From Indolivaga capnocytophagoides DSM 22835 (lineage in GTDB: Bacteria; Bacteroidota; Bacteroidia; Bacteroidales; Dysgonomonadaceae), in NCBI RefSeq assembly GCF_000426485.1, contig NZ_KE384529.1:310001-374000 (forward strand): a DNA stretch of 64,000 bases, in the 5' to 3' direction. The notes beneath the pieces were generated by a model. The model saw nothing but the letters and a program-made list of their open reading frames with translations, was not told the origin of the DNA and did no database searches. Numbering within the stretch: position 1 is the first letter of the stretch; each line of letters begins with the position of its first letter. Positions 3,955 through 61,690 of this stretch are shown here, in pieces. The position numbers and the translations under genes are program-made.

Positions 3955-5094
3955 TTATTTATATACAAATGCAAAGTGTCCCGGAATATTCCCCGCCGGG
4001 GTTTTCCATCTCATTTTTCCTTCAGGAGAAAAGCAATAAATATATCCTGTAACAACATAATTTTGAGCATCACAGATATAGATTTCTTTCGTCTGCGGAT
4101 TTACTTCTAATCCATAAGGAATCATTATACGCTTATCGGTTCCGTCAGTTATAATTTTATCACTGACAACCTGTTTTGTTTTAGAATTAAAGATTCCATA
4201 AGTAATAGTATTACTGTTGGTTATATAACTCCATGCTACGCTGTAATAATAGAGAGAATCTCCCACCATTTTCATCTCCATAACAGGTATATCAAGTTGA
4301 TGAGTCACCTTATCAGTCTTACTGTCAATCACAAATAAATTAGGTGGAGTATCGTAATAATCACCTCTCGAGCTTACATAAATATCACCCTGTCTGTCAA
4401 TAGCCATGCGCAAAAGGTTGATCCCGACATCAATCTTTTTAATCTCTGTAAAAGATTCCAGATCAACCACAGATACCGTATGATCATAATTGGGTACTCT
4501 ATATCCACCCGAATTCGCGACATACAGTTTTCCGTCATGAACGACCATTTCTTCCGGCTGATAACCGACTGTTACTTTTCGGGTTATTTCTAATGTGGCA
4601 GTATCTATTTCGGCAACAAATCCAATTTCGGCATTCGGATCAATAGCCACCGGACCGGCATACGAACTTACATAAGCTTTATCTTTATAGAAAGCCAGAT
4701 AACGGCAGTTTGGAATATCTATTTTTTTGATTCGCTTTGCAGTCCATTTATCCATCACTTCCACTTTATTCGAACAATTGATAACTGCATACAACTTATT
4801 TCCATATATCTTCAGATCGTTTCCTACATCCCCCATTTCCTTTACAACATCAGGATTCCGTTCCGAATAAATATCCTGAGTATATACTCCCGTCCTGTAA
4901 TTAAACATATCGAGGCTTGCTCTATTCATTCCCATATTCCCTTCGTTGAGCAGATAAAAACCTTCTATATTACCGCCCAGATGAGGTTCTGTAACGAGAG
5001 TATCGGACGATAAGAATATCGTCTCATCTTCGCGGCATCCTGAGAAAAGAATCAACAGGCTGATTGATAATATTGTGATCAGGTATTTTTTCAT
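3955..5094 (-). CDS. btuG: BtuG-like surface cobalamin-binding lipoprotein
   Basis: This 379-residue lipoprotein (lipobox FSGC followed by REDE) is built of YncE/NHL-like beta-propeller repeats running from about residue 45 to the C-terminus, with recurring patterns such as YGNKLYAVINCSNKVEVMD and DGKLYVANSG. This is the DUF5074 type of architecture. In Bacteroides, BtuG is a surface beta-propeller that captures B12 with very high affinity and caps the BtuB barrel. Its ATG overlaps the btuB stop codon by four bases, so the two are translationally coupled, as expected for a lid-barrel complex. Both are controlled by the upstream cobalamin riboswitch. The assignment rests on fold, length and context. 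Confidence 0.85.
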   Translation of the reverse strand: MKKYLITILSISLLILFSGCREDETIFLSSDTLVTEPHLGGNIEGFYLLNEGNMGMNRASLDMFNYRTGVYTQDIYSERNPDVVKEMGDVGNDLKIYGNKLYAVINCSNKVEVMDKWTAKRIKKIDIPNCRYLAFYKDKAYVSSYAGPVAIDPNAEIGFVAEIDTATLEITRKVTVGYQPEEMVVHDGKLYVANSGGYRVPNYDHTVSVVDLESFTEIKKIDVGINLLRMAIDRQGDIYVSSRGDYYDTPPNLFVIDSKTDKVTHQLDIPVMEMKMVGDSLYYYSVAWSYITNSNTITYGIFNSKTKQVVSDKIITDGTDKRIMIPYGLEVNPQTKEIYICDAQNYVVTGYIYCFSPEGKMRWKTPAGNIPGHFAFVYK

Positions 5095-7151
5095 AATTCC
5101 ATACTGAGTATAAAACGAAATGTTCTTCCGGGCATCGGATAATTATATATTACTTCATATTGCTGATTCAGAAGATTATTGACTTCCACCGTTCCTTTTA
5201 TTTTATGTCGGTCAAATGTAAATTCTTTCTGAAGCGACAGGTCATGTGTATACCAGGGTTGTATTTCGTTGACTGGTATATTATTAACATTCCCGTTATA
5301 CCTTTTACCTACATATATAAAGCTATAGTTAAGATTCCATTTGCTGTATTGAGCATTTATGATTGCCGATCCGCTATGCCATGGGGTATAAGGTATCTGA
5401 TCTCCATAAGACGACATCTCCAATCCTGAAAATTTGGTATAATCTTCACTGATTGAATATGTATAATTGAGATTGGCTGTAATATCTACTTTTTTAACAC
5501 TCATATGAGCATTAATTACTGTTTCAATTCCTTTGCCTCGAACCTTTCCCATATTAGTCATCATCCATCTAAACAGATTTCCTGTAGGAGCAGCTACTAT
5601 TTTGTCTTTCGTACTGGTATAATATGCATCGGCCTGTATCCGCAAAAAATTCAAAAATCCGCCGGAAACAGGTAATCCATAAGTAAACCCGATGTCATAC
5701 TGGTTCATATATTCAGGACGTAAAGAACTCGACCCGACCATAGTATAGTAAAGGTCGTTGAAGGTAGGCATCCTAAATATCCGCTTTGAGAAAGCACGAA
5801 TGTTAAAATCATGTTCTTCGAAAGGTTTGTAGCTGATGAATAAAGCCGGTGTAAATTCCGTTTTATCTCCAGCTTTCGCATTATATCTGACTTCGTCATG
5901 AACATAAGTACCTAACACACTTGCCAAAACCTTAAACTTTGCTGTACGAAAAGAGGTCGCAAACGAAAACAAGCCCGTATATCTCTGTGGATATGAGAAT
6001 TTAGTTTGAATTCCTTTTCGTGTTGCATTCAGTCTATTATACTGAAAATCGGTAGATAACGATACATCCCAATATGGTGATATACTGTACATATTCACAG
6101 CAGACAAATAATACTCCTGTTGATAATAGCTATCATCGGATTGTGCTCCTTCGGTCACAACTTCCCCCAGAATAGAGGTTGTATCACGGGCAACATAATG
6201 CATATAATCGAAAGCATATTTTCCTCTGGCCTGAAACTTATACTTATCAGTAAATTCTTTTGTAAAGAATCCCTGAACAAAGAAGTTTTTATCGTTCTGT
6301 CTGTATCCGTCTTTAAATTTATTTTCGACTATCGCACCGGGCGCACCTCTGTCTGACTGATAATAATAGATTTTAGCATCCCAGAACCCATTATTTACCT
6401 TTCCATACAATCCGCTTTCAATTCTTACGGCCTCTATGTCGCTGTTCCATCTGGTAGCTGTAGTATCGTAAGCGACTGTCTTATCCTGATTGAGCCTTTT
6501 ATATCTGAATTTGTATTCACCATTGGATTTTATGTACTCGGAACTAAGACTATAACTGATATTTGAGTTTATTTTTTGTTCCCATCGGAATGACGGGTTG
6601 TGGTAGTTAATCGACATTGTCTTATAGCGGACGAGTAGATTTGTCTTTCGGGAATCCTTAAATTGAGGTTTCTTTGTCCTCATATAAATTGTAGATGCTG
6701 CGGCAAAATCTTTAGCAGACTGAAATATTTCACTCTTCTGACCATTATACATTGTTAGGGATTCCATGTCATCCAATGAATATTTACCCAAATCGGTCAC
6801 ACCATTTTGTGCATTACCTAATTCGATCCCATCATAAAAAACTCCGACATGATGAGTTCCCATATTTCTGACATCTACAGTCTTTAATCCTCCTACACCT
6901 CCATAATCTTTAATCTGTGTTCCTGCAAAATACCGTAAAGCATCAGCAACAGAATGGCTCGATAAATTATCCAGCTGCTTACCGGATAAAGATTGTACGG
7001 GGATAACTTCTTCAAAAGGTTTAGCTGTAACTTTTACCTCTTGCAAAACCTGCACACTATCGAGCTTACTCTGAGCTGAAATAACAGAAGAGATAAAGAT
7101 CAAAGTTAGAGTTAGTAGTATTTTTCTTTGTTTAAAGTTTGAGCAATACAT
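5091..7151 (-). CDS. btuB: BtuB-type TonB-dependent cobalamin receptor
   Basis: This 686-residue outer-membrane receptor begins with a signal peptide (cleavage after VISAQ) and then a TonB-box-like stretch (SVQVLQEVKVTAK). The plug domain (about 45-160) contains DVRNMGTHHVGVFYDGIELG, and the barrel ends in an aromatic C-terminal strand (FRFILSMEL). It lacks the N-terminal carboxypeptidase-like domain of SusC proteins. It is the first gene after a clear cobalamin riboswitch and is coupled to a BtuG-like gene, so corrinoid import is the most likely job. Transport across the inner membrane would need BtuFCD encoded elsewhere. Confidence 0.88.
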   Translation of the reverse strand: MYCSNFKQRKILLTLTLIFISSVISAQSKLDSVQVLQEVKVTAKPFEEVIPVQSLSGKQLDNLSSHSVADALRYFAGTQIKDYGGVGGLKTVDVRNMGTHHVGVFYDGIELGNAQNGVTDLGKYSLDDMESLTMYNGQKSEIFQSAKDFAAASTIYMRTKKPQFKDSRKTNLLVRYKTMSINYHNPSFRWEQKINSNISYSLSSEYIKSNGEYKFRYKRLNQDKTVAYDTTATRWNSDIEAVRIESGLYGKVNNGFWDAKIYYYQSDRGAPGAIVENKFKDGYRQNDKNFFVQGFFTKEFTDKYKFQARGKYAFDYMHYVARDTTSILGEVVTEGAQSDDSYYQQEYYLSAVNMYSISPYWDVSLSTDFQYNRLNATRKGIQTKFSYPQRYTGLFSFATSFRTAKFKVLASVLGTYVHDEVRYNAKAGDKTEFTPALFISYKPFEEHDFNIRAFSKRIFRMPTFNDLYYTMVGSSSLRPEYMNQYDIGFTYGLPVSGGFLNFLRIQADAYYTSTKDKIVAAPTGNLFRWMMTNMGKVRGKGIETVINAHMSVKKVDITANLNYTYSISEDYTKFSGLEMSSYGDQIPYTPWHSGSAIINAQYSKWNLNYSFIYVGKRYNGNVNNIPVNEIQPWYTHDLSLQKEFTFDRHKIKGTVEVNNLLNQQYEVIYNYPMPGRTFRFILSMEL

Positions 7152-7240: not shown

Positions 7241-7281
7241 TTGTTTCTTACAGCTCTATTCCACGAAAGCTTTCAGTTTAT

Positions 7282-7467
7282 TAATCTTGGCAGGTCTTCT
7301 GACTTACTCCATCTTTGAGCGTCCTTCCCATTTCCGAAGAAACAGTGGTTTTGAGTTTTGCTCAAAGACTTTGATAGAGCTTACAGCAGCGGGTCTGTTC
7401 AGGATTTTCACCTGATTCCCTTTTCATCATATTACCGAAGAAGCGGTTTTTATGACACCAAAATCAA
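7282..7467 (-). ncRNA. Cobalamin riboswitch of the btuB operon
   Basis: Read on the minus strand, the segment carries the conserved blocks of the B12 riboswitch in order: GGTGAAAATCC, CCCGCTGCTGTAAGC, CCACTG, GGGAAGG and AGTCAGAAGACCTGCC. It lies about 130 bp upstream of btuB. In this family, binding of adenosylcobalamin or related cobalamins represses the downstream genes. No strong intrinsic terminator follows it, so control of translation initiation is likely, but that is inference. Confidence 0.93.
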
Positions 7468-7469
7468 AG

Positions 7470-7477
7470 CAAAGATA
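7470..7477 (-). promoter_or_regulatory. Probable -7 element of the btuB operon
   Basis: TATCTTTG on the minus strand fits the Bacteroidetes -7 consensus TAnnTTTG and sits immediately upstream of the riboswitch, where a promoter is required. No clean -33 TTTG was found at the usual spacing. Confidence 0.5.
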
Positions 7478-8400: not shown

Positions 8401-9762
8401 TTATTTAGAAAACATCCAATAATCGAAATACATAAGTGCCCCCGGTTTATTTCCTTTAAATACAAAATACAGGTCATGCACACCTGTTACAGTTGCGATA
8501 TCAGCAGTCACTAATGACCACCTATTATCTCCGCCCGTAATAGGAACATTGATTGTTGCTAAAAGTTTTCCATCTTTATTATCTATCCTTACTTCCATTG
8601 TCACTCCCCCATTGTGAGTCGTACCTACTCTGGCTGTTAGCTTAGATGCTCCGTTTAAACCAAAGTCTACACCGTTAATCTTAGTATAAGCACCGTCTTT
8701 CATCGCATTGATAAACACTCCGACCTCTTTGTTCTGTGAAGCTTTTACACCTTCGGAAAAAGCAATTGTCTCGGCTTCCGTTTTTCTATACGGATCCAAC
8801 CTTTCAAGCCCTGTTGAAATACCTGCGGTCATTTTCAGTGGTTTAATTGTACCATCTTTTGCAAATTCCATTCGTTCAACACATACCGAACGGGTGAATC
8901 CGCCCCCTCCGGGCAATGCTCCATTATGATAGAACAGATATGTATTACCCTTATAGTCTATTATTCCAGGGTGATTAGTAAAACTGCTACCTTCCGTGGC
9001 CATTAATGTTCCTTTGTTTTCCCATGGGCCCGTTGGACTCTTACTTGTAGAATATCCTAAATGCTCAGGTATAGGTCCCCCTGCCCATAGTAAATAATAA
9101 AGGTTATTTCTCTTATACAGCCAGGGCGCTTCTTCATATAAAGTCGGACGCTCTGCAATATTGCCTTCACGCTTACCAAAGGATGCTTCCGTCATTGGCA
9201 CACTAACAATATCTCCTTTATAAGATATCATATCATCATTCAATTTCACATAATACAAATCGGGATTTCCCCAATAGAGATATGCCTGTCCATCATCATC
9301 TATAAAAACCGTAGGATCAATATCTCCTTTTCCTTTTTGAGCCAAAGGTTTTCCCAATGGATCAACAAACGGACCATAAGGGCTGTCAGAAACCGCAACC
9401 CCGATAGCCGGGCTATTAGTGGTTTTATCTATGGTAGGTACATATATATAGAACTTTCCATCTCTTTCTATACATTGTGCAGCCCATGCATCGCGCGCAG
9501 CCCACGCAAATTCATTATAAGAAAGAACAACTCCGTGGTCTGTCCAATTAACCATATCTTCGGTTGTATATAACTTCCAATTGTTCATGACAAACCATGT
9601 TGCATTATCTTCGTCATGACTGGTGTAAAGATAAACCTTGCCATTATAGACCATCGGAGCCGGATCGGCTGTATACATAGTCTGTACAATAGGATTTTGC
9701 GCCTGGCAAATCATAGATGCACTAATGCAAGTTAGCATAAGATTCTTTTTTAAATGTTTCAT
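8401..9762 (-). CDS. GH43 glycosidase with C-terminal CBM6
   Basis: This 453-residue protein has a signal peptide (cleavage near ICQAQ), so it is probably periplasmic. A five-bladed GH43 propeller (about 25-315) contains the three expected carboxylates: Asp33 in TADPAP, Asp149 in DIDPTVF and Glu211 in [12 protein letters not shown]6-like beta-sandwich follows (about 325-453: [11 protein letters not shown]... ending FDYWMF). Enzymes of this layout usually remove arabinose from, or cleave, xylan-derived oligosaccharides. It is the last gene of the minus-strand xylan operon and the paralog of the preceding gene. The exact activity (arabinofuranosidase or xylosidase) cannot be read from sequence. 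Confidence 0.87.
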
Positions 9763-9902: not shown

Positions 9903-11240
9903 TTATTTAAATTCCCATGAATCAAAGAAGAATAGATTATCCTTTTGAGCGGTACTTTTAAAGCAAAAATAGAGATCGTGAACTCCTTTTGCATCATTGA
10001 TCAGACACGACATTTCTCCAAACTTATCCATTGCTCCGGTACATTTTAGCGGAAGAGTGCCTATAAGAATTCCGGTAGTACCGTCGAGACGGATTTCGAT
10101 ATAACTCCCTTCTGCACTGCATGCAGCGGTAATCTGAAGTGATTTTGCTTCTTTTCCGAAGTCTACACCTTTCACACACAAAGATTCATTGTTATCGATA
10201 TTGGTAACACAGATCCTTCCATCGGGCATTTTTTCTGTTTTCAGTCCATATCCCCAAGCAATTGTTTCGGCTTCAACCCGACGGTACGGGTTAAATGATT
10301 CTATCTGTTCCAGTACAGTCTCTGTCCAATAAGGAACTTCCTGAATAGTGCCATCTGCATTGTAATACATAGGTGCAGCCATGGATGATCGTCTCTCATG
10401 ATGCTTAAATGTCTCTTTGTGCATCAAATCATAACTTAATCCAAAAACATACGATTTTCCTTTATAATCAATAATGCCCGGATGATTCCCTCTTGAGCGG
10501 GGGGTTGGTTTCATAATATATCCTTTTGTTGTCCATGGGCCGACAGCACTATCGCTCATTGCATAGCCAAGTCCTTCGGGACAACAGGTCGAAGCAAAGG
10601 CCATATAGTAATGGTTGTTTCGTTTATATACCCAGGGACCTTCCTGATAATGTTCCGGTTTCTTGTCAAGCTGTACGATATCTCCCGAATAAGAAATCAT
10701 ATCCTCGTTGAGTTTCACATAGTATACATTCGGATTACCCCAATACATATAGGCTTGTCCATCGTCATCAATAAGAATCGTAGGATCAATATCATACCAG
10801 TGTTCTTTCTGCCACACCAAAGGCTTGTTTATCGGATCTTTGAATGGACCATAAGGCGAATCGGATACTAACACACCAATACCCTGTCCATGTATAGGAC
10901 AATACATATAAAATTTACCATTCCGCTCAACAACCTGTTGAGCCCATGCTCCATTATCTTTTGTAACCCATTCGAAGCTTTTCAGGGAGGCTACAGCTCC
11001 ATGATCTGCCCAGTTTACCATATCGGTAGATGTATACAACAGCCAGTCAAGCATTTTAAAACCCTGAGAATCATCCTCATCATGCGTAGTATATAAATAT
11101 ACAGTATCGTTATATACCAAGGGTGCAGGATCCGCAGTATATTTAGTTTGGACTAAAGCATTTTGGGCAATAACTTGTGTAACTGCAAATACAGCTAATA
11201 ATAAGATTCCTGATTTTATCAGATAATTTGTGTACTTCAT
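9903..11240 (-). CDS. GH43 glycosidase with C-terminal CBM6
   Basis: This 445-residue, signal-peptide-bearing (cleavage near TQVIAQ) GH43 enzyme is a paralog of the gene that follows it. Catalytic-site landmarks are TADPAPLVY (Asp37), YDIDPTILIDDDG and YQEGPWVYK (general acid Glu). A CBM6-like module (about 325-445) begins at VEAETIAWGYG and ends in FFFDSWEF. It is likely to act on arabinoxylan oligosaccharides in the periplasm. An 85-bp stretch of this gene (10236-10320, encoding the hinge into the CBM6) is duplicated in inverted orientation at 11286-11370 inside the upstream truncated GH43 gene. Confidence 0.87.
   Translation of the reverse strand: MKYTNYLIKSGILLLAVFAVTQVIAQNALVQTKYTADPAPLVYNDTVYLYTTHDEDDSQGFKMLDWLLYTSTDMVNWADHGAVASLKSFEWVTKDNGAWAQQVVERNGKFYMYCPIHGQGIGVLVSDSPYGPFKDPINKPLVWQKEHWYDIDPTILIDDDGQAYMYWGNPNVYYVKLNEDMISYSGDIVQLDKKPEHYQEGPWVYKRNNHYYMAFASTCCPEGLGYAMSDSAVGPWTTKGYIMKPTPRSRGNHPGIIDYKGKSYVFGLSYDLMHKETFKHHERRSSMAAPMYYNADGTIQEVPYWTETVLEQIESFNPYRRVEAETIAWGYGLKTEKMPDGRICVTNIDNNESLCVKGVDFGKEAKSLQITAACSAEGSYIEIRLDGTTGILIGTLPLKCTGAMDKFGEMSCLINDAKGVHDLYFCFKSTAQKDNLFFFDSWEFK
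10236..10320 (-). repeat. 85-bp inverted repeat, donor copy within GH43
   Basis: This segment encodes TVLEQIESFNPYRR and VEAETIAWGYGLKT in the intact GH43-CBM6 gene. It matches 11286-11370 in reverse orientation with 2 differences in 85 bases. It is coding and in frame here, so this is the probable original copy. Confidence 0.9.
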
Positions 11241-11273
11241 TGTTTATGTAATTAAAGTTTAACAATATTTATT

Positions 11274-11726
11274 TCAGAGCAACAGGACTGTACTCGAACA
11301 GATAGAATCATTTAATCCGTACCGTCGGGTTGAAGCCGAAACAATTGCTTGGGGATATGGACTGAAAACATAAAAAGTACCCTTATGGTAACGAATAGCC
11401 GGAGCCCATATTCCATTGCCGTAAATACCTTTATCGCCTTCGAGATGGAATTCGGGCCCAAGATCTAACTTATCAAAAATGTAAGTCACAAATTCCCAGT
11501 TAACCAAGTCTTTTGATCGGAGCAACGGAAGCCCCGGCATTGCATGCATAGAACTGGCGACCATATAAAAAACAGTATCTCCCCGAATCAAATCAGGATC
11601 TGTAAATTCATCATAAAACAAAGGGTTGGTAAATGTTCCGTTTCCATTATCAGCAGTCCACGACTGTGAGTTGGCCTTACCTATAAATAAGGCACATAGA
11701 GAAAGAATCAATAAAAATTTCTTCAT
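11274..11726 (-). pseudogene. Truncated GH43 gene with a captured antisense tail
   Basis: The reading frame gives 150 residues: a signal peptide (cleavage near KANSQ), then a GH43 N-terminus (DEFTDPDLIRGD, SKDLVNWEFV, GIWAPAIRYHKGTFYVFSP). It resembles the gene at 38755-40350, which has the same blocks but runs to over 500 residues. After FSP the sequence is not GH43. The last roughly 25 residues are the antisense translation of an 85-bp inverted copy of the neighbouring GH43-CBM6 gene. The second catalytic Asp, the general acid Glu and four of the five blades are therefore lost. It cannot be an active glycosidase. The junction falls at a short shared string (TTTTCAGTCC), pointing to a microhomology-mediated rearrangement. 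Confidence 0.9.
11286..11370 (+). repeat. 85-bp inverted repeat, second copy
   Basis: The plus-strand sequence matches the reverse complement of 10236-10320 at 83 of 85 bases. In plus-sense translation the copy ends in GLKT followed directly by a TAA stop. Together with the donor copy it flanks about 965 bp that contains the GH43 start and its catalytic domain. Confidence 0.9.
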
Positions 11727-11944: not shown

Positions 11945-14131
11945 TTATTTGCTTAAGCCATCAGCAAATCCTCCATAAGCAGGTTTTCGGTAATATTCAG
12001 AATTCCAAAGACCTATGGGTGCCGCGGGTCTCCATGAAGAATTGTCGGGACTATCAGTCGAAGCCCATTGAGTAATACCATATCGCTGAGGTGCAGGGAT
12101 GTACTTAAAGTAAGATTTTATAATATAAGTGTAATAATCACTTTGCTTTTTGAGTTGTTCAAAAGTGGCATCCTTCGTCCTTACACTATTTCCAGACTCA
12201 TCGTCGATACCCATATCCAGTTCCGATATCTTGATAAGCTTACCTGTGGCAGCCAATGCTTCAAACATTTTATCAACACGGGCTTCCCTTCGTGCTTGCT
12301 CTGCCGCATCTAAGCTAACCGATACGTGCATCTGAGTTCCGATACCATCAATCTTAGTAACTCCATCAGATTCCCAATACTTTATCATATTGATCAACCC
12401 ATTACATTTATCAAGGCTATATTCTAGGTTATAATCGTTTATGAACAATTTTTGACCATCACCTCCATACTTGCGGGCAAGCTCTACAGCCTTACGGGCA
12501 TAATCTTTACCCATATAATCCTGCCAATAAAATTCATCTGCGCCGATATCAGACTTACCGACTCCTGTTTTTAATTGCGAAGGATTACCGTCATCCATAG
12601 GCTCGTTTACCACATCCCACACCTTAACATAGTCTTTCGTTACCTCCATCATGCCCTTTATCCAACGTTCCATCTCATTGGTAATGATCTCTTTCTTTTC
12701 TTCATCAGTTTTCTCTCCGCTGGTAGCCGTTTCTTTCTGAAAGGATAAGTTATCTATATATACCGTTCCGGCATTCTTTCCCAGATTGAAAGCAATAGCC
12801 CCTCCTCCGACAAACGAGTCGGTTACGGTGAGCGTATAAGTAAACGTTTTCCACTCGGTAGATGCAGAAATATCACCAAAAGCTGTCCAATGCAAGTAAC
12901 TGCCGGGAGTTGTCTGCGTTTGTGTACTAAAGGTCATCGCTTTATCTGCTTTTACATCCATACTCACCTTATATACATCTCCGAGCTTCATCGTTGGTGA
13001 AAATTTGAAAATAAACTGAGATTCATAATCATTGACCTGTGCACTCGGAGTTTTAACAGTAAGAGCACGTCCCGATCCATTTGATCCGGTAGCATACCCT
13101 TTCACACCTACTCCATTGACCTGAAAACTATTATCGAAATTATCTTCTTCGAAATCACCTCCGGAAAGCTGCTCGACCCAACTAGTTCCCGAACTTCCTT
13201 TATTATAATGTCTCAACGAAATATCATCGAAATAATACGTTGTAGCTGTTGCTCCGAGATTAAAAGCAAAGGTATAAGCATCTGCAACGTCAGCTGTTGC
13301 GGTAAACTCTTTTTTATAAATCTTCCATGAGGTAGTTGCACTCAGCGAACCAAACATATCCCAATGTTTATATTCCTGAGGACCATAATGTGCCTGAGTT
13401 GCAAAAGAACAAGCCTGATCCGCTCTGTATTTCATGCTGAATTCGTAAGTTTCCCCCTCAACCAAATGCATAGAAGGAAAAGTAAAGAAAAACTGAGACT
13501 CATAATCATTTGTCCTTACCGCACTGTTTGTTACAGCAATCGCTCTGCCTGTTCCATCTGCACCTCCTCCGTTGGCAGTATAAGACAATGATGCTAAAGA
13601 AGTTCCGGTTGTATAGGAAGATTCATCATCACCTTCAAAATCGGAGTTGATGAATACATTATCCTCCCAATAGGGATCACCACCCGCTTCGGAAGGGGCA
13701 ATTGTACTATTCAGCCATTTAGCATTCTGATTTGCATGCCAGCAAAGGGTATGTCCGTAAATAGTGGTTCCGGCAGATTTAGCCGTGGCAATAAACTTCT
13801 CGACTGTAGAAAAATCCATAGCCCCCTCATCGCTCACACAGGCTCCATGTTTCATTTCCCAGCCTGCGGTCATTTCATTAAAGTTACTGTTTATAAGCTG
13901 GTATATGCCGCCTTTTGCATTATAGTCCCCCACTGATACTCCTATTCCCAGTTTAAAATCGGGATTAGCAGTACGGTCTACATAATCCTTCAGAACATGA
14001 TAAGTATTTAAATATTCATATTCAGCAATACTTGCTGGTTTCTCAACACTAAATTCCAACAGCTCATTATCTGCACAAGACGATAATAGAGACAGAGTTA
14101 TGATCGGAATTACTTTTATATATTGTTTCAT
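11945..14131 (-). CDS. GH10 endo-beta-1,4-xylanase with two inserted CBMs
   Basis: This 728-residue lipoprotein (lipobox LSSC followed by ADNELLE) is a GH10 xylanase whose barrel is split. The N-terminal part (about 45-150, with GHTLCWH) is followed by two carbohydrate-binding modules of the CBM4_9 type (about 156-315 and 322-470). The barrel resumes at about residue 480. The acid/base is Glu510 in VVNEP and the nucleophile is Glu637 in ISELD. Surface GH10 enzymes with CBMs inserted at this point are typical of Bacteroidetes xylan loci, where they make the first cuts in the backbone outside the cell. It is encoded just after the SusC/D pairs and the glycan-binding lipoprotein. Confidence 0.95.
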   Translation of the reverse strand: MKQYIKVIPIITLSLLSSCADNELLEFSVEKPASIAEYEYLNTYHVLKDYVDRTANPDFKLGIGVSVGDYNAKGGIYQLINSNFNEMTAGWEMKHGACVSDEGAMDFSTVEKFIATAKSAGTTIYGHTLCWHANQNAKWLNSTIAPSEAGGDPYWEDNVFINSDFEGDDESSYTTGTSLASLSYTANGGGADGTGRAIAVTNSAVRTNDYESQFFFTFPSMHLVEGETYEFSMKYRADQACSFATQAHYGPQEYKHWDMFGSLSATTSWKIYKKEFTATADVADAYTFAFNLGATATTYYFDDISLRHYNKGSSGTSWVEQLSGGDFEEDNFDNSFQVNGVGVKGYATGSNGSGRALTVKTPSAQVNDYESQFIFKFSPTMKLGDVYKVSMDVKADKAMTFSTQTQTTPGSYLHWTAFGDISASTEWKTFTYTLTVTDSFVGGGAIAFNLGKNAGTVYIDNLSFQKETATSGEKTDEEKKEIITNEMERWIKGMMEVTKDYVKVWDVVNEPMDDGNPSQLKTGVGKSDIGADEFYWQDYMGKDYARKAVELARKYGGDGQKLFINDYNLEYSLDKCNGLINMIKYWESDGVTKIDGIGTQMHVSVSLDAAEQARREARVDKMFEALAATGKLIKISELDMGIDDESGNSVRTKDATFEQLKKQSDYYTYIIKSYFKYIPAPQRYGITQWASTDSPDNSSWRPAAPIGLWNSEYYRKPAYGGFADGLSK

Positions 14132-17138: not shown

Positions 17139-19982
17139 TCAAAAAACCGCTTTAAGACCTATGTTGAAGAATCGTGTTTGAGGAGAACCTCCTGTATTCA
17201 ATTCCAGTATTTTACGTTCTTTAGCGATCTTCAGTAAATTAGATCCACTCACATACATAGATAAGTCATTAACAAAAGTTCCATTGAATACCGATTTCGG
17301 AAAATCGTATGTTACCTGCACCCTCGCAATATTAAATTGGTCTGTGCTGTATAACCAGAAATCTGAATCTCTAAAGTTATTATCTCCGCTTTTTGTTGTC
17401 AGGCGGGGATAGGTTGCCGTTTCTTTGGTTTCTTCTGTCCAACGCCCACGTACAACTTCTGAATATTTCCGGTCTCCAAACACCCAATAGTATTGACTGT
17501 TTTTCATTGCTGATGCACCAAAACTTCCGGTTCCTAATACGAAAAAGGTAATATTATTCCATTTTGCAGTAAAATTAACACCCAACGTAAAAGGTGCACC
17601 TTGCCAGCCATAGCGTTTACCTAGATACACAACATCCTTTTCGTCGATAACGTTATCTCCATTCTGATCTACATATTTTATATCTCCCGGTTTTACTTCA
17701 CCGAATGACTGGCTCGGAGAATTTGCTATATCAGTATCATCAGAAAAGAATCCGTCACTCACCAAGCCCCATACTCCATCGGTCGGATGTCCTGTTCTGT
17801 TTTGATATGAATATTGATACGTTTCATCCAAACGGGCATTCTTCGATTTATAATAAGTTCCTGATACTCCGAAACCCAGATCGACTTCATCTACACGCTT
17901 ATTCACATTTACGGCAAAATCAAATCCTTTGCGATCATAGTTATTATAGTTGAGATAAGGCAAAAATGAGCTGGTTGGCCATCCCGAAACAAAATATCCG
18001 GGGTAAAGCGAAGAAGCTTGTGTAAGCAATCCTTCCATACGGTTCGAGAACAGCGAAAAATCAACAGTTAACATTCTTTTCCACAAAGAAGAGCGAAGTC
18101 CTATACTTATTTCCTTACGCTTAATAAAAGACAAATCGTTATTCTGTCCCCGAAGCGATTGTGTCGCTCGGTTCTGATTACCATCAGCCCATCCCCACCA
18201 AGCACCATCGGTCTGATTATAATTGGCCTGATACAAATAATAATCGGAAATATCCAAATCAGAATGAAGAACCGAAGCCGAGGTACTCAATACCAAATCA
18301 TCTATGACCGGGTGATCTTTAAGAAACTCTTCGCCGGTCAATCTCCAACCTAAAGATACCGAGGGAGAAAAAGCCATACGGTTGCCCTCCGGTAAACGGG
18401 CAGAATAAACAAGAGCATTACTCAGACTCAAATAATACTTGCTTAAGTAGTTATAATCGACCTGCAAACCTAAATTGGCGTTACTGGTTTTGTGATAATC
18501 TCCACTTGTCGATCGTTGATAACCTGAGGCTATCAGCATAGCTGAGATATTATGAGTATTATCTATGACTTTTTTATAGTCGAATTGTCCCGAAAATGAG
18601 ATTGTCTGCCTGTTCCAACTCCCTCCAATATTCTGTACTCCGCTCTTTTTATCCGTTCCATATTTGGTTAAGCCGAGAATTACATCTTCACCATTAAAAT
18701 TTCCCCAATCAGCCTCATATGTCGCATAAGAGTTATTGTAAGATTTACTATATGAAGTAGAATAATCTATACCAAATTGGGTTTTAAAAGACAAGCCCTC
18801 CAATACTCTTCCTAGATTAACATCTATACCGGCATCAAACTGATACTGACGGCTCGTAAATGTACTGTCGCCGGCGGCATACAAGTCTGCTAAAGCATTG
18901 GTCTGGTTAAGTTGTGTCCCTCCCAGCAAATATTTACCATCGATCAAATGATTGCTGTTATTTACCAATGCCCAAACATTCTCATTACTCTGATCAATAT
19001 AACTTATAGGAATTAATGGCGCAATACGGTTCGGTCTCAACGAGCCTGCCGCTGACCAAAAATCACCAATAGCCATATGTTTATCATAAAATGTGGCATT
19101 AGCATTTACAAAGCTTTTAATAAAATTATTCAGGGCAACATCGATATTACCTCTAATACTAAAGCGTGTAGTATTATCGTTTTTTGCATCGCCATATTTC
19201 AATAAAGACCCTTCGTTGTATAAATTGATATTGGTATAGAACTGAGCTTTTTCAGAACCGCCCGTAACCTCAACTACCCCTTCGGTATAATTATATGCCT
19301 TTTTGAGATAGTCTGAAGAATACATGTTTACATTGGGATACCGATACGGATTTGTCCCCGATGCATGGTTATATATATCATCGGCACTGTAAGTTGCTTC
19401 CAAACCATCATTTACACGAGCCTCGTTATACAAGGTCATATACTCAGCCGATCCCATATATTTGGGATAGCTTTTCGGCACATACCATCCGGTATTGGCT
19501 TGTACTCTGATTTTTCGATCCTCTACTTTTCCTCGTTTCGTTGTTATATATATAACACCCTTAGCTCCACGACTACCATACAGAGCTATAGCAGAAGCAC
19601 TTTTCAGAAAAGTGATCTGCTCAATCTCCGATGGCATTACATTGTTTGCATCACGGGGAATTCCGTCTATAATAACCTCATAACCATCCATTCCCCATAA
19701 GCTGCTTCCATTCCAGCCGCCTACATACCCCTGCATATTCTCCAATGAATAGGAAAAGTAGTTTTTATTCATCAGGTTTGCCACATCTACATAAGAAACA
19801 CCACCCAATAAATCAGACTTATTCACTTTCTGATAAGCAACCTGTATCTTGGTATTATCAGAATTCCGAAGCGAATCTGTGCTCATTGCAAACAGCATGT
19901 CTTCCTGCTCTTGAGCATTTACAGACAAGAACGAAACAAGAAAAGCTGCTGATACAAATATTTTTGTTCGTATATATTTCAT
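17139..19982 (-). CDS. SusC-family TonB-dependent transporter lacking the N-terminal domain (second pair)
   Basis: This 947-residue outer-membrane transporter has a signal peptide (cleavage after SVNAQ) and proceeds almost directly to the plug (GMDGYEVIIDGIPRD, then KSASAIALYGSRGAKGVIYI at about 90-150) and the barrel, ending in FFNIGLKAVF. Unlike the two other SusC proteins here (1042 and 1040 residues), it has no carboxypeptidase-like N-terminal extension and no DEVVVVGYG-type TonB box. A weaker TonB box may lie in the first 60 residues. Such short SusC partners occur in tandem SusCD loci and may import a different product size. It is followed by its SusD. Confidence 0.9.
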   Translation of the reverse strand: MKYIRTKIFVSAAFLVSFLSVNAQEQEDMLFAMSTDSLRNSDNTKIQVAYQKVNKSDLLGGVSYVDVANLMNKNYFSYSLENMQGYVGGWNGSSLWGMDGYEVIIDGIPRDANNVMPSEIEQITFLKSASAIALYGSRGAKGVIYITTKRGKVEDRKIRVQANTGWYVPKSYPKYMGSAEYMTLYNEARVNDGLEATYSADDIYNHASGTNPYRYPNVNMYSSDYLKKAYNYTEGVVEVTGGSEKAQFYTNINLYNEGSLLKYGDAKNDNTTRFSIRGNIDVALNNFIKSFVNANATFYDKHMAIGDFWSAAGSLRPNRIAPLIPISYIDQSNENVWALVNNSNHLIDGKYLLGGTQLNQTNALADLYAAGDSTFTSRQYQFDAGIDVNLGRVLEGLSFKTQFGIDYSTSYSKSYNNSYATYEADWGNFNGEDVILGLTKYGTDKKSGVQNIGGSWNRQTISFSGQFDYKKVIDNTHNISAMLIASGYQRSTSGDYHKTSNANLGLQVDYNYLSKYYLSLSNALVYSARLPEGNRMAFSPSVSLGWRLTGEEFLKDHPVIDDLVLSTSASVLHSDLDISDYYLYQANYNQTDGAWWGWADGNQNRATQSLRGQNNDLSFIKRKEISIGLRSSLWKRMLTVDFSLFSNRMEGLLTQASSLYPGYFVSGWPTSSFLPYLNYNNYDRKGFDFAVNVNKRVDEVDLGFGVSGTYYKSKNARLDETYQYSYQNRTGHPTDGVWGLVSDGFFSDDTDIANSPSQSFGEVKPGDIKYVDQNGDNVIDEKDVVYLGKRYGWQGAPFTLGVNFTAKWNNITFFVLGTGSFGASAMKNSQYYWVFGDRKYSEVVRGRWTEETKETATYPRLTTKSGDNNFRDSDFWLYSTDQFNIARVQVTYDFPKSVFNGTFVNDLSMYVSGSNLLKIAKERKILELNTGGSPQTRFFNIGLKAVF

Positions 19983-25875: not shown

Positions 25876-28800
25876 TTATCCCCCATAGCTTGTTGGGGAT
25901 ATTCCATAAAACTCTTTAAAGGCATTCGAAAAATACGATGCATTCGAAAACCCAACAGCTTGGGCCACTTCCATTATGGTCAGTTTTTTACTTGATAACA
26001 GTTCTGCCGCTTGCTGTAAACGAATATTCCGAATAAAATCGCGAGTCGATTGGTTCGTCAATTCTTTGAGTTTTCGATGTAAATGTACCCGGCTAATACC
26101 TATTTTAGTAGCTATCATTTCAACATTCAAATCCTGATTGCTTATATTCTTATTTATGATGTCCATCACTTTTTCCAAGAGCTTTTCATCTGCAGACTTC
26201 ATGGTTATTTTGCGTACTTTATCTCTCTGCTGCTGGTTTCCACTAAAGTTATTCTTTAATATCTCTCTATTTCTGAGTATATTCCTGACTGATTCTTTTA
26301 ATATTTCAATACTAAATGGTTTGACGATATAGGCATCCGCTCCTGTTTCAAGCCCCTTCAGATTATCTTCATCCTTCGATTTAGCTGTCAATAATATAAC
26401 AGGCAAATGATTGATATTTACATTCTGCCTGATTTTGCGACACAGGGTTATACCATCCATTTCGGGCATTAGTACATCGCTGATTACAATATCCGGAGTC
26501 TTGTCTAATATCACAGACAATGCTTCTTTTCCGTTAACACTTTCTAACACATGGTATTCTCCGGATAACTCTTCGGATATATATTTTCGGATATCTTTAT
26601 CATCATCAACTATTAATATGCGGTATTTGGTCTTCGCCCTCACTTTTGGATCTTCTTCGCCATCCGGTATAATAGATATTACCTGAGCTTTATCGGTATA
26701 CGACTGCTTTTCCGATATCGTATTGTCTATTTCTTCAGGTAGCAAATGTTCTTTGCCTTGTGGTATACGGATAATAAACCGACAACCTCTCTCTTCTTTA
26801 TTATTTTCGGCAGTGATCTCCCCATGATGAAGTTGCACTATTGATCGGGCTAAATGCAGACCAATACCTGTACCTTCCCCAATTATATCCGGATTATTCT
26901 GCGACTGATAAAATCGTTTAAAGATAGACTCAACTTCACTTTCATTGATACCAAAACCATTATCAGAAACTATAATTTCGATATATTGGCTCAACTGATC
27001 ACTGCGATTCTCATCTATAGCTGTGTTGAGGTATATATCTATTTTGCCATCATCTGGTGTAAACTTCAAGGCATTGGATAGGGTGTTCAGTATTACTTTA
27101 TCAAAATTCTTTGGAGCAATCCAAGCATATAAATCATTCATGTCATGATGAAAACTAAAACTGATATTTTTAGATTGAAACTCCTCTTCAAAAATACTAC
27201 ACAAGTCGTCGATAAATCCAACCATCTCTACTGACTGAAATTTGAGAGTCATCTGTCCTTTATCTATCTTACGTATATCCATCAGTTGATTTATAAGAGA
27301 TAAAATACGTTCCGAATTACGGAACATAGTAAGATAAGACTTCTGCCGTATGTGATCTTTATCGGCTGTCATCAGCTTTTTCAATGGATTTATTATTAAA
27401 GAAATAGGAGTTCTTATCTCATGCGATACATTCATAAAAAACTGTAGCTTAGCCTCATCAATCTGTTTCTCCTGTTCATGTTTTTGCAATTCCAATCGAG
27501 TATAATAACGATGTCTGAATTGTTTTATCAGAATAAGGATAATAAGTATAGCTAACAAACAATAAACTAACTTAGCCCATAATGACCAATACCAAGCAGG
27601 ATAAATAACGATAAGAATCTCTTTGACCGGCGAATAAGTATTATAATCCTTTGCTTTCACCTTGAAATGATACTTTCCGGGAGACAGATTATCAAATGCA
27701 ACCCGGTTAGCTCCGGGAGCGAGATTTATCCAGATATCATCATTTATCGAATAAGAATAAACTATGCGCTCGGGATTATTAAATTCCATGGCGGAAAACT
27801 CTATAGAAAAAGAGTTATCTAAATTCGATAAATGAAATTCAGTAGCTTTCATTACCGAAGTATTTATTATATCAAAAGCACCGGACTTCATTCCTTCTTT
27901 TACGGCCTTGTCATGAATATAAAAATCGGTTATTACTATATCCAGTCTCCTTTTCTCCGAAATAATCCGTTCTGGAACAAAGGAAGTAATACCACTTATA
28001 CCTCCGAACACTATTTGTCCTTTTCTATCGACAAGAGAAGCTCCTTTACTAAACTCATTCCCATACAAACCGTCATCGGCATAATAATTGATAAAATCAT
28101 GAGTATCGAGATTCATTTTCGATATACCAAAATTTGTGCTGATCCATAAATTCCGGTTTCGATCTTCCTCTATACTACAGATAGTATTACTAGGAAGTCC
28201 ATCGTCCATAGTTAAAGTCGATATTTCGTGAGTCTTATCATCTATATATTTCAACCCTTCTGATGTTCCAACCCAAATGACTCCGCTGCTATCTTCAAAT
28301 ATGGTGTATATAATAATGCCAGCCATTAACCTATTGAAACCATAAGTAGATAAAAAGCTTTTGGTTTTCAAATCAAAACAGCTTAACCCATCATAAGTAC
28401 CAATATATAATTTGTCATTTCTGGTGGTAAGCAGGTTCGTTATCCAACTATTATGCAGCATGTTAATATCCCCCCTGTTATCAACATCTTTCAGAATATC
28501 GTAGTTCGTCACTTTATGGGTCTTTAAGTTTAGGCAGAATATACCTGATCCCATTGAACCGATCCAAAGATGATGGTCCTTATCTTCGGCAAAGCTATAT
28601 ATCCGCTGAGCAACATTTGAATTAACATCGATAAGGTCCGATAAATATTCACATTTTCCGGTCTCCCTGTTCAAAGTAGCGGCACCATTCAAATATGAAC
28701 CTATCCACAGATTACGTTCCGAATCTTCGTATATACACATAATAGTAGAAGGTACAGACCTCGGATCGAGAGTATGCTGGAAATGAGCTTTGAGCTTTCC

Positions 28801-43224: not shown

Positions 43225-46200
43225 ATGAATAAGCATATATTTTTTACTGTAATCAGCCTTTTGTTACTTCTCAAAACCTCTTTTGCAAATCCAAATAGCT
43301 TCTACGGCTTAGGAAAACTATCAAGTAACCTGATCACAAATATTACTCAGGATTCTTCCGGATTTATTTGGATTGCAACAGAAAACGGATTGAATAAATT
43401 TGATGGCTGGAATTTTACTCATTATTTCCGTAACGACAGAGATCCCAATTCTTTAATTGGCAACTATATCGAATCTTTTCTGAATGACAAGGATGGCACA
43501 CTTTGGATAGGCTCCAACAGAGGATTACAATATTATTGTGCATATGAAGATAAATTTCATAGTATACAGTTTCCGAACAACATATACCCATCAGTACAGG
43601 GTATTATACAGTTTCAATCGGGCGAAATATGGATTGCCACTTCCGGATACGGTATCTTTTCGGTGGATAAGAAAAAAATGAAAGCAACAGAATTGGTAAA
43701 TATTAACAAACAACTCAATAACCCTTATGCGAATTATATGCTTCTGGATAGCAAGTCCCGCATCTGGATAGCACTATCGGATAACCGCATTGCATACATC
43801 TCTCAAGATATTAAGACAGTTAACATACAAAAAATACCGATTGACACAAGACACAATATAAACAGCATTACAGAAGATCATCAAGGAAATATCTTCCTCG
43901 GCACAAGTTCTAATGTGTTTATGTGGAACAATACACAACAGAAATATATAAATATAGAAAACAAAGAGGCGACAAATAGTATACGGGGAGTAACATGCCT
44001 CAAAGACGGCTCGATATACGTCAATACTACAGGACAGGGTATGAAACTGTTAGACATTAACACATTGAGTCTTAACACTCCATCAAAACTCATCGGAGGA
44101 TATATAAATCCGATAAAAGAAAAAATCACCAGTTTCTATGAAGACAATAAAGGAAACTTATGGCTGGGATGCTACAAAAAAGGACTATTAATGGTTTCAA
44201 ATGAATCAAAGCAGTTCGATTTCTGGGATTTTTCGATCATGGAGAAAGACGCCGATATCCTTTCGATGTACAGCGATGAGGACAATAGTTTATGGATCGG
44301 CACAAGCAATGGGACTCTGCTGAATTTAAATGATAAAGGACTGATAAGAGCTTCTTTCAATATAAAAAAAGACATATCGAGTATGTTCGAAGATCATAAT
44401 GGAACATTTTGGTTGGGCAGTTATGAAGGCGGTCTTATATCTTTCAATAAAAAAGACGGAAAATGTACCAGCTATCGCAAATTTGAAGGAAAATCGATTG
44501 TTGCGTTCGGTGAAGATCTCAAAAATAATATGTACATATCGATAATGGGAGAAGGCTTTGTTCGCTACAATTACCAGACTAAAGAATGGAAACACATTAC
44601 AGATACGACCAGGCTAAACAGTTCGAGAAAGCTCTTTAACAAGTGGATAGGTAATATCTTATGTGATTCGGACGGACTTATCTGGCTTGCACAAAGTACC
44701 GGAGTGGATTGTTACGACCCTGAAAAGAATATTATACTCGATTTTGCCGGAAATACCGATCTGCGGTCATGTATTGCAATCACACTATTGGAAGACAAAA
44801 AGCACAATATTTGGATAGGAACAAACAACGGACTGTTCTGCTATAACAAAAACGAAAAGAAACTCACTCATTTTGGAATAGATGATGGACTTCCTAATAA
44901 TATTATATGCGGGTTGGGTATTGACAAACAAGGTAATATATGGGGCAGTACTCTCAATGGAATATTTCAGTTAAACAGCAAAAACAAACATATAGCATGT
45001 TATTATACGGGCAATGGATTAGTAGATAGAGAGTATTCTCAGAATATATCTATTCAGAACAAACATGGTTATATTTACTTTGCGGGTTTATATGGCATCA
45101 CCAGATTCTTACCCGACAATATTAGTGCCGCCCGATTGGATTACAAGCCTATACTAACCCACCTGTATCTTAATAATGAGGCTGTAAGTGCTAATAAAAA
45201 GATAAATAGAAAACCTATTTCTAAAACAGAATTTAGAGAAACTTCGAACATTAGTCTATCCTATAACGAAAGATCAATTTCATTTGAATTTTCGACCATG
45301 AACTTTCACAATCCCGAAAATATAGTATTCGAATACAGATTACTGGGCATGAATGAAAAATGGACAAGTACTTTTCCTGGAGAAAACCGCATTACCTATA
45401 ATTTTCTATCTCCCGGTACATACATACTCGAAGTGAGAGCCTTTGAAAATAATACATACTCAACAACTAATTCACTGACAATATACATCTCCCCGCCATG
45501 GTACAGCACAGCATGGGCTAGATGCCTGTATCTGATACTATTATTCGGATTACTTAGCTGCATTTTTTATCTGTGGAATAAACGAAGATTAAGAAAGCTG
45601 GAGGAATTGAACAATGAAGAAAAACTTAAGTTCTTCATTAATATTGCTCATGAAATAAGATCTCCTATGACTTTAATAATAAATCCTTTATCAGAATTAT
45701 TAAGACAAAAAAACGATGAAAACACATCCCGTTTATTGAATACAATACAACTGAATACCAACCGGATAATGAATCTCATTAATCAGCTTCTGGATATTCG
45801 AAAGATTGATAAGGGACAGATGAAAATTGCTTGTGAAGAAACGGATCTGATCGATTTCATAAAAGATCTATTGAATATCTTTGATTATCAGACAGCCGAA
45901 AGAAGCATCAAACTCTCGTTCGAATCTAATATAACTCATCTGCCTGTATGGATAGACCGTAATAATTTTGATAAAGTACTCGTCAATTTATTAGTAAACG
46001 CATTTAAACATACTCAAGACGGCGGAGCAATAAACCTTTCGGTTCAAACTCCCCAGCAGAAATCACTTTCGAATTCAACTGAATATGTCGAAATCAAAAT
46101 TACCGATTCGGGCACAGGTATAAACGAGAAAGAGATAGAACGTATATTCGAACGTTTTTATCAGAGTTCATCGCAGGGACATCTCGGATTTGGAATAGGA

Positions 46201-59043: not shown

Positions 59044-59051
59044 TACCTTTG
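59044..59051 (+). promoter_or_regulatory. Probable -7 element of the second B12 operon
   Basis: TACCTTTG fits the TAnnTTTG consensus and lies immediately before the riboswitch, as in the first B12 operon. A T-rich stretch near 59013-59018 may serve as the upstream element. Confidence 0.55.
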
Positions 59052-59052
59052 T

Positions 59053-59235
59053 GTTTGATTTGGTGATACAATTAATATCCATTGATTGTGTGAAAAGGGA
59101 ATCCGGTGAAAATCCGGAGCAGTGCCCGCTACTGTAAGTTTCATTGATAGCCTCAAAACCAATCTTCAAGCCACTGTTAATTAAAACGGGAAGGCATTTG
59201 AGGTGAAACAAGTCAGGAAACCTGCCAGATTATTG
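59053..59235 (+). ncRNA. Cobalamin riboswitch of the siderophore-type receptor operon
   Basis: The conserved blocks appear in order: GGTGAAAATCC, CCCGCTACTGTAAG, GCCACTG, GGGAAGG and AGTCAGGAAACCTGCC. It lies 64 bp upstream of the TonB-dependent receptor. Between it and the start codon, TATTCC and GGAATA can pair around CGGGGTCA, a possible expression platform. The downstream genes should be repressed when cobalamin is plentiful. Confidence 0.93.
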
Positions 59236-59299
59236 TAAATAAACATATTCCCGGGGTCAGGAATAAATTGTCTCATTATTTTAAGTACACTTTCTCTGA

Positions 59300-61690
59300 A
59301 TGAAAAAAAGAAGTTACGGACACCTCCATGTCCTAATGAGTGGGTTGCTATGCCTGCCTATGTTCTATGCGTCTACAATTCATGCACAAACAAGCAGTAT
59401 CACCGATACTGTACACTCCATCAAAGAAGTAACAGTATTAAGTAACAAAAAACAGGACATTAAAGTAACCCGTTTAAATGTACCTCTTACTTATTTACCG
59501 GTTTCTGTCTCTACAGTTTCTAATACAGTATGGGATGTAAGAGGAATAACCCATATTCAGGATGCCATAAAATTCTTACCGGGAGCGCATATGCGTACAG
59601 TCTATGGAGCCTACCAAAGACTAGAGGTCAGAGGTTTTGATGTTACCCCGATTATGATAGATGGAGTAAAGGATGAAAGATTTGTTCCACCCGGAAACTC
59701 TGCGCCTTTTCCGGATTTTGCATCTGTTGAATCCATGGAGTTGTTAAAGGGACCGGCATCGGTTTTACACGGACAATTTGCTGCAGGAGGAATACTTAAT
59801 GTCGTACGTAAAGCTCCTTCGGTCGAAAATATTCTTAATACACGGTTGACATATGGATCGTATGACAACAAACAAGCGATGATCGATTTCGGTGGTTCAA
59901 TATACAAATCACTGAGATACCGAACTGTATTTAATTTTTCTGACAACGAAGGATACAGACATACAAATGACAAAAGACTATCCGGTTATATGGCTTTAGC
60001 TTATGACATCGACAGTAAGCAGTCATTAGAACTGCGGGGAGGGTTCAACAGGGATAAATATGGCACAGATGTAGGCTTGCCTCCAACAATGTCGAATGAC
60101 ATTTACAATACTGATGGAAATTTATATCTCTCAAAAGGAAGCTCATTAGCCGGATTAAACAGAAGAGCCAGATATAATAATGAATCCGATCTGTTCATTA
60201 ATAATGGAGTAAACATATCGGCCAGATATACCAACCAGATTTCACAGGCCTTCAACATCAATGAATATCTTACCTATACTTACGATATCTTAGACTATTT
60301 CAGTACAGAACCTCTTAGTTATCTTACAAGCAACAATCCTATTTACAACCATTATTACAATGTGTCTCAAGCGGATGGAAGTATCACAAAGAAATACATC
60401 AGTCTGGATACCGTACAATTAACTAATCCTTTAAAATTCGCCCACAAGTCTTATATGATAAACAATCATCTGGAGATTTCCGGTAAACTGAATTTAGGAA
60501 GTATAAAGTACGAATATCTGGGCGGATATGCTTTTGTCGGATATTTCAGGCACTCGTATAAAGGCTATAACAAAGCTCCGGCAACAGATCCCTTAAATAG
60601 CAGCGGAGATGTATATGGTCCCGGACTTTATTCGAAGGTATCTGTTTATGATCCGCAAAGTATGGGTTATATGAAAACTAAGTTCAGCAAGGCTTACCCC
60701 TCGGAAATGTATTTGCATGGAATTTATCTCCAGAATATATTCGAACTAAGCAAACAACTTAAATTGATGTTAGCGGGGCGTTACGATTATGTAGACTATA
60801 AAAAGACTATAAAAGATGACGACGTCACTGATGGCAAATGGAAATACGACAGAACACAACCTTATGTGTCAACCCAGAACTCGGCGTTTACATACCGTGC
60901 AGGACTAGTTTATCTGCCTATTGAATCTCTGTCTGTATATGGATCTTTCTCGAATTTCTTCCAGCCATACAGGGATTTTTACAGCGAAAACACAGTTTAT
61001 ATCGACTCCGATGGTAATCGTTATGATCCGCAGAACAGCAAGGAAACATTTAAGCCCCAACGAGGATATCAAGGTGAAATCGGAGCCAGATATTCATTCA
61101 AGAATATCTTTTATGCTTCAGCAAGTGCTTATTATATAAAAAGAACCAATGAGAAAAAAAACCTGACAACTATTACTGAAGAAGGGGAAGACAAAGGCAA
61201 GTCTGTTGTCGGGCAGGTTGGAACAACCACATCGAAAGGTTTTGAACTGGAAGCAGGACTAAAGCCTGTAAAAAACCTTTCTCTCGCATTTGGATACACA
61301 TATACCCACGCAGTGGTAGGAGATATAAAAAAGACTATTTATCTGGATGTTGAAAACGACAAAGATGTACAACTTGCTTATGTTCCGCGTAATATGTTTT
61401 ATACAACTGGTGATTATTTATTCTCATCGAATTTGTTAAAAGAGCTACAATTGAATTATACAGTTTCGTATACAGACAAAATGTATAGCAATCTCACTAA
61501 AGACGTTACTCTTGCATCTCATGTAATCACAGATTTAGGAGCATCCTACAAGCTAAACAACGGAGTGACAATCTCGGTGAATTTGAATAATGTCTTTGAC
61601 AAAGAGTATGCTACAAATACATACGGACGACAAATAATTCCGTCTATAGGACGAAATTACATGATATCACTGTCATATAGCTTAAAGTAA
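59300..61690 (+). CDS. TonB-dependent receptor of the siderophore type under B12 control
   Basis: This 796-residue outer-membrane receptor has a signal peptide (cleavage near TIHAQ), a TonB-box-like SIKEVTVLSNKK, a plug (about 60-170, DAIKFLPGAHMRTVYG, VRGFDVTPIMIDGVKD and KGPASVLHGQFAAGG) and a barrel ending NYMISLSYSLK. The plug and barrel resemble FhuA/FpvA-type siderophore receptors rather than BtuB. Its control by a cobalamin riboswitch argues for a corrinoid, cobalt or cobalt-complex ligand. The adjacent PepSY membrane protein, directly coupled at the stop codon, is a common partner of siderophore-type receptors. Confidence 0.9.
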   Translation: MKKRSYGHLHVLMSGLLCLPMFYASTIHAQTSSITDTVHSIKEVTVLSNKKQDIKVTRLNVPLTYLPVSVSTVSNTVWDVRGITHIQDAIKFLPGAHMRTVYGAYQRLEVRGFDVTPIMIDGVKDERFVPPGNSAPFPDFASVESMELLKGPASVLHGQFAAGGILNVVRKAPSVENILNTRLTYGSYDNKQAMIDFGGSIYKSLRYRTVFNFSDNEGYRHTNDKRLSGYMALAYDIDSKQSLELRGGFNRDKYGTDVGLPPTMSNDIYNTDGNLYLSKGSSLAGLNRRARYNNESDLFINNGVNISARYTNQISQAFNINEYLTYTYDILDYFSTEPLSYLTSNNPIYNHYYNVSQADGSITKKYISLDTVQLTNPLKFAHKSYMINNHLEISGKLNLGSIKYEYLGGYAFVGYFRHSYKGYNKAPATDPLNSSGDVYGPGLYSKVSVYDPQSMGYMKTKFSKAYPSEMYLHGIYLQNIFELSKQLKLMLAGRYDYVDYKKTIKDDDVTDGKWKYDRTQPYVSTQNSAFTYRAGLVYLPIESLSVYGSFSNFFQPYRDFYSENTVYIDSDGNRYDPQNSKETFKPQRGYQGEIGARYSFKNIFYASASAYYIKRTNEKKNLTTITEEGEDKGKSVVGQVGTTTSKGFELEAGLKPVKNLSLAFGYTYTHAVVGDIKKTIYLDVENDKDVQLAYVPRNMFYTTGDYLFSSNLLKELQLNYTVSYTDKMYSNLTKDVTLASHVITDLGASYKLNNGVTISVNLNNVFDKEYATNTYGRQIIPSIGRNYMISLSYSLK

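Follow-up and report, generated by a model that had tools for sequence, protein, structure and literature searches.

Copying from a nearby template has been described both in genomes and in vitro. In E. coli, stress-induced rearrangements have been interpreted as inverted template switches at microhomologies of 3-30 bp, in paired events of the FoSTeS/MMBIR type (PMC3161906). Short-range template switch mutations have also been reported in a study of great apes (PMC7954356), and chimeras of a related shape arise during multiple displacement amplification (MDA) (PMC1855051). Here we analyze a locus of Indolivaga capnocytophagoides DSM 22835, contained in a window of 64,000 nucleotides (the whole stretch of DNA that was analyzed), that resembles each of these systems in part.

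The locus shares with the E. coli events the presence of two joins, at least one of them with microhomology, a nearby segment copied in inverted orientation and a local deletion. In contrast to those events, the copied stretch measures 85 bp rather than kilobases, one gene pair is involved and no amplification is seen. With the great ape mutations it has in common a short copy taken from a nearby alternate template at the site of mutation, whereas the jump of ~1-2.7 kb, the accompanying large deletion and the bacterial host are different. The MDA chimeras also combine inverted sequence, an intervening deletion and priming at short complementarity; however, the two copies have diverged here, and a copy made in vitro would not show this divergence. 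This kind of mutation is already known, and the locus is a further example of it.

The inverted copy and the truncated GH43 gene

The window carries a xylan-type locus (8401-50500) that comprises SusC/SusD pairs, GH10, GH43, GH97, GH95 and GH8 genes, an esterase and two hybrid two-component regulators on opposite strands. Two intact GH43-CBM6 genes lie in it on the minus strand: gene a (9903-11240), which encodes 445 aa with a Pfam GH43 match over profile positions 8-288 of 288 plus CBM_6, and gene b (8401-9762), 44% identical to gene a. Orthologs of gene a in genomes of the same family reach 82-83%. Upstream of the truncated gene described below is a GH10 gene of the same xylan locus, also on the minus strand and assigned by Pfam (11945-14131). 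Its region 12760-13650 contains two similar tandem modules (~43% identical, direct repeat 13001/13478), which precede the C-terminal catalytic part.

A segment at the GH43-CBM6 boundary of gene a (10236-10320, plus strand) recurs in inverted orientation at 11286-11370 (minus strand), and 83 of the 85 positions are identical, in full agreement with the coordinates and identity of the original prediction. The arms are 965 nt apart, and the inverted insert thus has its source close by, as looked for in a template switch. When extended more loosely, to 10224-10320 and 11286-11382, they span 97 nt at 95%, the sequence added at the first join being T-rich. A simple independent-base model predicts that ~5e-34 such pairs would occur by chance in 64 kb. 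The 85-nt segment has these two copies, and no third, in the 4.38-Mb genome (38 contigs, 98.65% complete).

The second copy was also predicted to be fused to the N-terminal part of another GH43 gene, and we observed precisely this. The ORF at 11274-11726 (minus strand) encodes 150 aa, and its Pfam GH43 match is limited to profile positions 1-84 of 288, well short of a complete domain. Its first 121 codons (11364-11726, minus strand) are the N-terminal stub of a GH43 + GH43_C2 gene, as judged by Pfam and by orthologs. The stub tracks these orthologs for 121 residues, through KGTFYVF, and then diverges abruptly. The remainder (11274-11363, minus strand) is a 29-residue tail plus stop, which translation and comparison with the orthologs reveal to be non-homologous and mostly antisense of the CBM6-side copy. 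Among the genomes compared, the closest relatives of the stub are found in Bacteroides propionicigenes (L027, 84% identity), Phocaeicola intestinalis (L028, 80%) and Bacteroides sp. An322 (L029, 74%). The orthologs are intact in all three, at ~690 aa each, and the two scanned with Pfam (L027 and L028) contain both GH43 and GH43_C2 domains.

The missing C-terminal part, ~570 residues, is not closely matched anywhere else in the genome, where just 31-38% paralogs occur in other intact genes. Consequently, when measured against its ~690-aa intact orthologs, the GH43 gene has lost ~1.7 kb, or ~570 codons, some four fifths of the whole. In GH43 enzymes, the catalytic residues are distributed across a five-bladed propeller. 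Since the stub retains no more than the beginning of this propeller and most of the domain is gone, its product should be enzymatically inactive. The locus had been described as a GH43 gene destroyed by an inverted duplication; the truncation and the inverted copy stand, and the destruction itself is better described as a ~1.7-kb deletion filled with a short inverted copy. It is worth noting that the 150-aa ORF could easily be misannotated as a short GH43 protein.

The two joins and a template-switch model

The first join (11364-11370, minus strand) carries a 7-nt microhomology, TGTTTTC, that the ortholog comparison identifies as common to the donor and the GH43 coding sequence. After the FYVF or FYIF at the join, the three closest orthologs continue with V-N, while S-N or T-N is found in many more distant ones. 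Thus, on the evidence of the closest orthologs, the certain shared sequence is TGTTTTC, with the later bases coming from the donor; it would extend to TGTTTTCAGT at most, if the ancestor had an AGT serine. The original prediction had placed the join at a shared TTTTCAGTCC, which takes in bases that derive from the donor. The join is ~1 kb from the donor today and would have been roughly 2.7 kb from it before the deletion. This proximity, together with the microhomology, is as expected of a local template switch and supports the proposal that a template-switch or microhomology event occurred within the locus.

The second join (11269-11289, minus strand) is probably located near AGTC, the end of the copied stretch and a putative microhomology at this join, after which CTGTTGCTCTGAAATAA follows. 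In another frame, CTGTTGCTCTGAAATAA reads SPVALK-stop, and it may represent the original 3' end of the GH43 gene; the C-termini of the orthologs read ..FEWSVIQ and ..FAWQVVADVAD. The position of this join is less certain than that of the first.

We propose, with a probability of roughly 0.85, that one complex event with two template switches deleted ~1.7 kb of the GH43 + GH43_C2 gene and placed an inverted templated insert across the gap. In our model, the gene situated upstream of gene a would have lost ~1.7 kb as follows. During synthesis across the GH43 gene, the nascent strand would stall at TATGTTTTC, and its 3' end would anneal to TGTTTTC in gene a, on the opposite strand. From there, 78 more bases would be copied backwards from gene a, before synthesis resumed on the original template close to the GH43 3' end, with everything in between left uncopied. 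The predicted product is the 121-residue stub followed by the 29-residue antisense tail. A history of two separate events, a deletion and then an insertion, would give a less simple account than one event. Most likely, we are looking at an ordinary replication slip by template switching, a real but unremarkable mutation. It nevertheless illustrates cleanly how a complex template-switch mutation can remove one enzyme from a xylan locus.

Artefact and functional alternatives

The next explanation in order of plausibility is an assembly or amplification chimera, in which the inverted join was made in vitro, for example by MDA, or during assembly, and the gene is intact in the isolate. MDA chimeras have the same shape: most are inverted sequences accompanied by an intervening deletion, and complementarity of 2-21 nt primes them (PMC1855051). 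However, a chimera would copy the donor in its present state, and the two copies differ at two positions. Both differences fall at third codon positions of gene a and are synonymous there (codon 317, AAC/AAT; codon 310, CTG/CTC), when ~25% of random changes would be expected to be synonymous. The pseudogene copy shares AAT at codon 317 with four orthologs (L165, L166, L028 and L029), whereas gene a has AAC. Codon 317 is not invariant, as a more distant ortholog (L074) has AAC, and the change at codon 310 cannot be polarised. The simplest reading would be that the copy was made first and that gene a changed afterwards.

An ortholog-like base that is present in the copy and missing from gene a is not what a chimera predicts. 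As it concerns one informative site, this appears to be a good but not conclusive argument against an artefact. In addition, the lost 1.7 kb finds no close match in an assembly of this completeness, and a chimera would need two switches, with a return to the original strand. We therefore consider an artefact improbable. More generally, the state of the copied bases can serve as an argument for a real event over an artefact.

The repeats could instead delimit an invertible element, whose 965-bp segment between the arms flips to switch gene a on or off. They do enclose the start and the catalytic part of gene a, and invertons are common in Bacteroidales. By contrast, flipping the segment in silico split gene a between its GH43 and CBM6 halves and produced no new long ORF. 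The arms are also imperfect and 85 bp long, compared with 10-40 nt in known invertons (PMC11892184), and no recombinase or invertase domain was present among the window proteins scanned. An inverton is thus very unlikely here, while occasional RecA-dependent flipping between the arms is possible. With the terms used, nothing was found in the literature on intragenic invertons or bacterial templated insertions.

Least probable of all is a gained function for the 150-aa product or for an antisense RNA arm, for instance if an 85-bp RNA duplex within a common transcript lowered the expression of gene a: the two arms pair over their full length in the predicted RNA fold and the stub is very conserved, but such pairing is an automatic consequence of any inverted copy, the conservation reflects the time before the event, and a transcript shared by the stub and gene a would have to be assumed. 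Taking both routes together, it is highly doubtful that the arms would act in the living cell, whether RecA-dependent flipping of its start switched gene a on and off or an RNA duplex tuned the gene; if they did, a mutation scar would have turned into a regulator.

Gene order in relatives and the age of the loss

Returning to the single-event deletion that we favor, we compared the locus with its counterparts in related genomes. In the Bacteroidaceae L028 and L029, gene a is followed by gene b and then by the GH43 gene, which thus stands after and not before the pair. In L165 and L166, which belong to the same family as the strain studied here, genes a and b are adjacent and the GH43 gene is absent. 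The same-genus genomes searched contained no close orthologs of the GH43 genes of the locus. A xylan locus of similar make-up (SusD, lipoprotein, GH10 ... gene a) is present in one genome (G048, L169), with other genes between GH10 and gene a. Among the loci examined in same-genus, same-family and same-order genomes, none had an intact GH43 gene upstream of gene a in this order. Thus, the full-length gene that the original prediction suggested looking for at exactly this place in close relatives was not found among the genomes compared. We infer that the GH43 gene lay upstream of gene a before the event. As the intact orthologs in the genomes compared stand in other gene orders, the single-event history is less certain, while the truncation itself is unaffected.

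The loss looks recent, as had been predicted. Compared with the L027 ortholog over 100 codons that exclude the signal peptide, the stub shows 94% identity, a pN of 0.04 and a saturated pS. The pN of the intact genes a and b against their relatives is 0.11-0.22, with 0.15 for the neighbouring gene b. These values suggest that only a short time has been available for the stub to decay. Saturation of pS in the comparisons with all relatives led us to abandon synonymous distance as a means of dating.

Elsewhere in the window, the SusC-like protein encoded at 17139-19982 has no more than a weak Plug match and lacks a CarboxypepD_reg-like N-terminal domain, in contrast to the two other SusC proteins of the locus. 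A 90-nt inverted similarity (73%) connects the two hybrid two-component regulator genes (27383-27472 and 45600-45689), as expected of paralogs located on opposite strands. Finally, two cobalamin riboswitches (Rfam RF00174) are present, at 7272-7477 (minus strand) and 59044-59243 (plus strand), and each precedes a TonB-dependent receptor gene (5091-7151 and 59300-61690, respectively).
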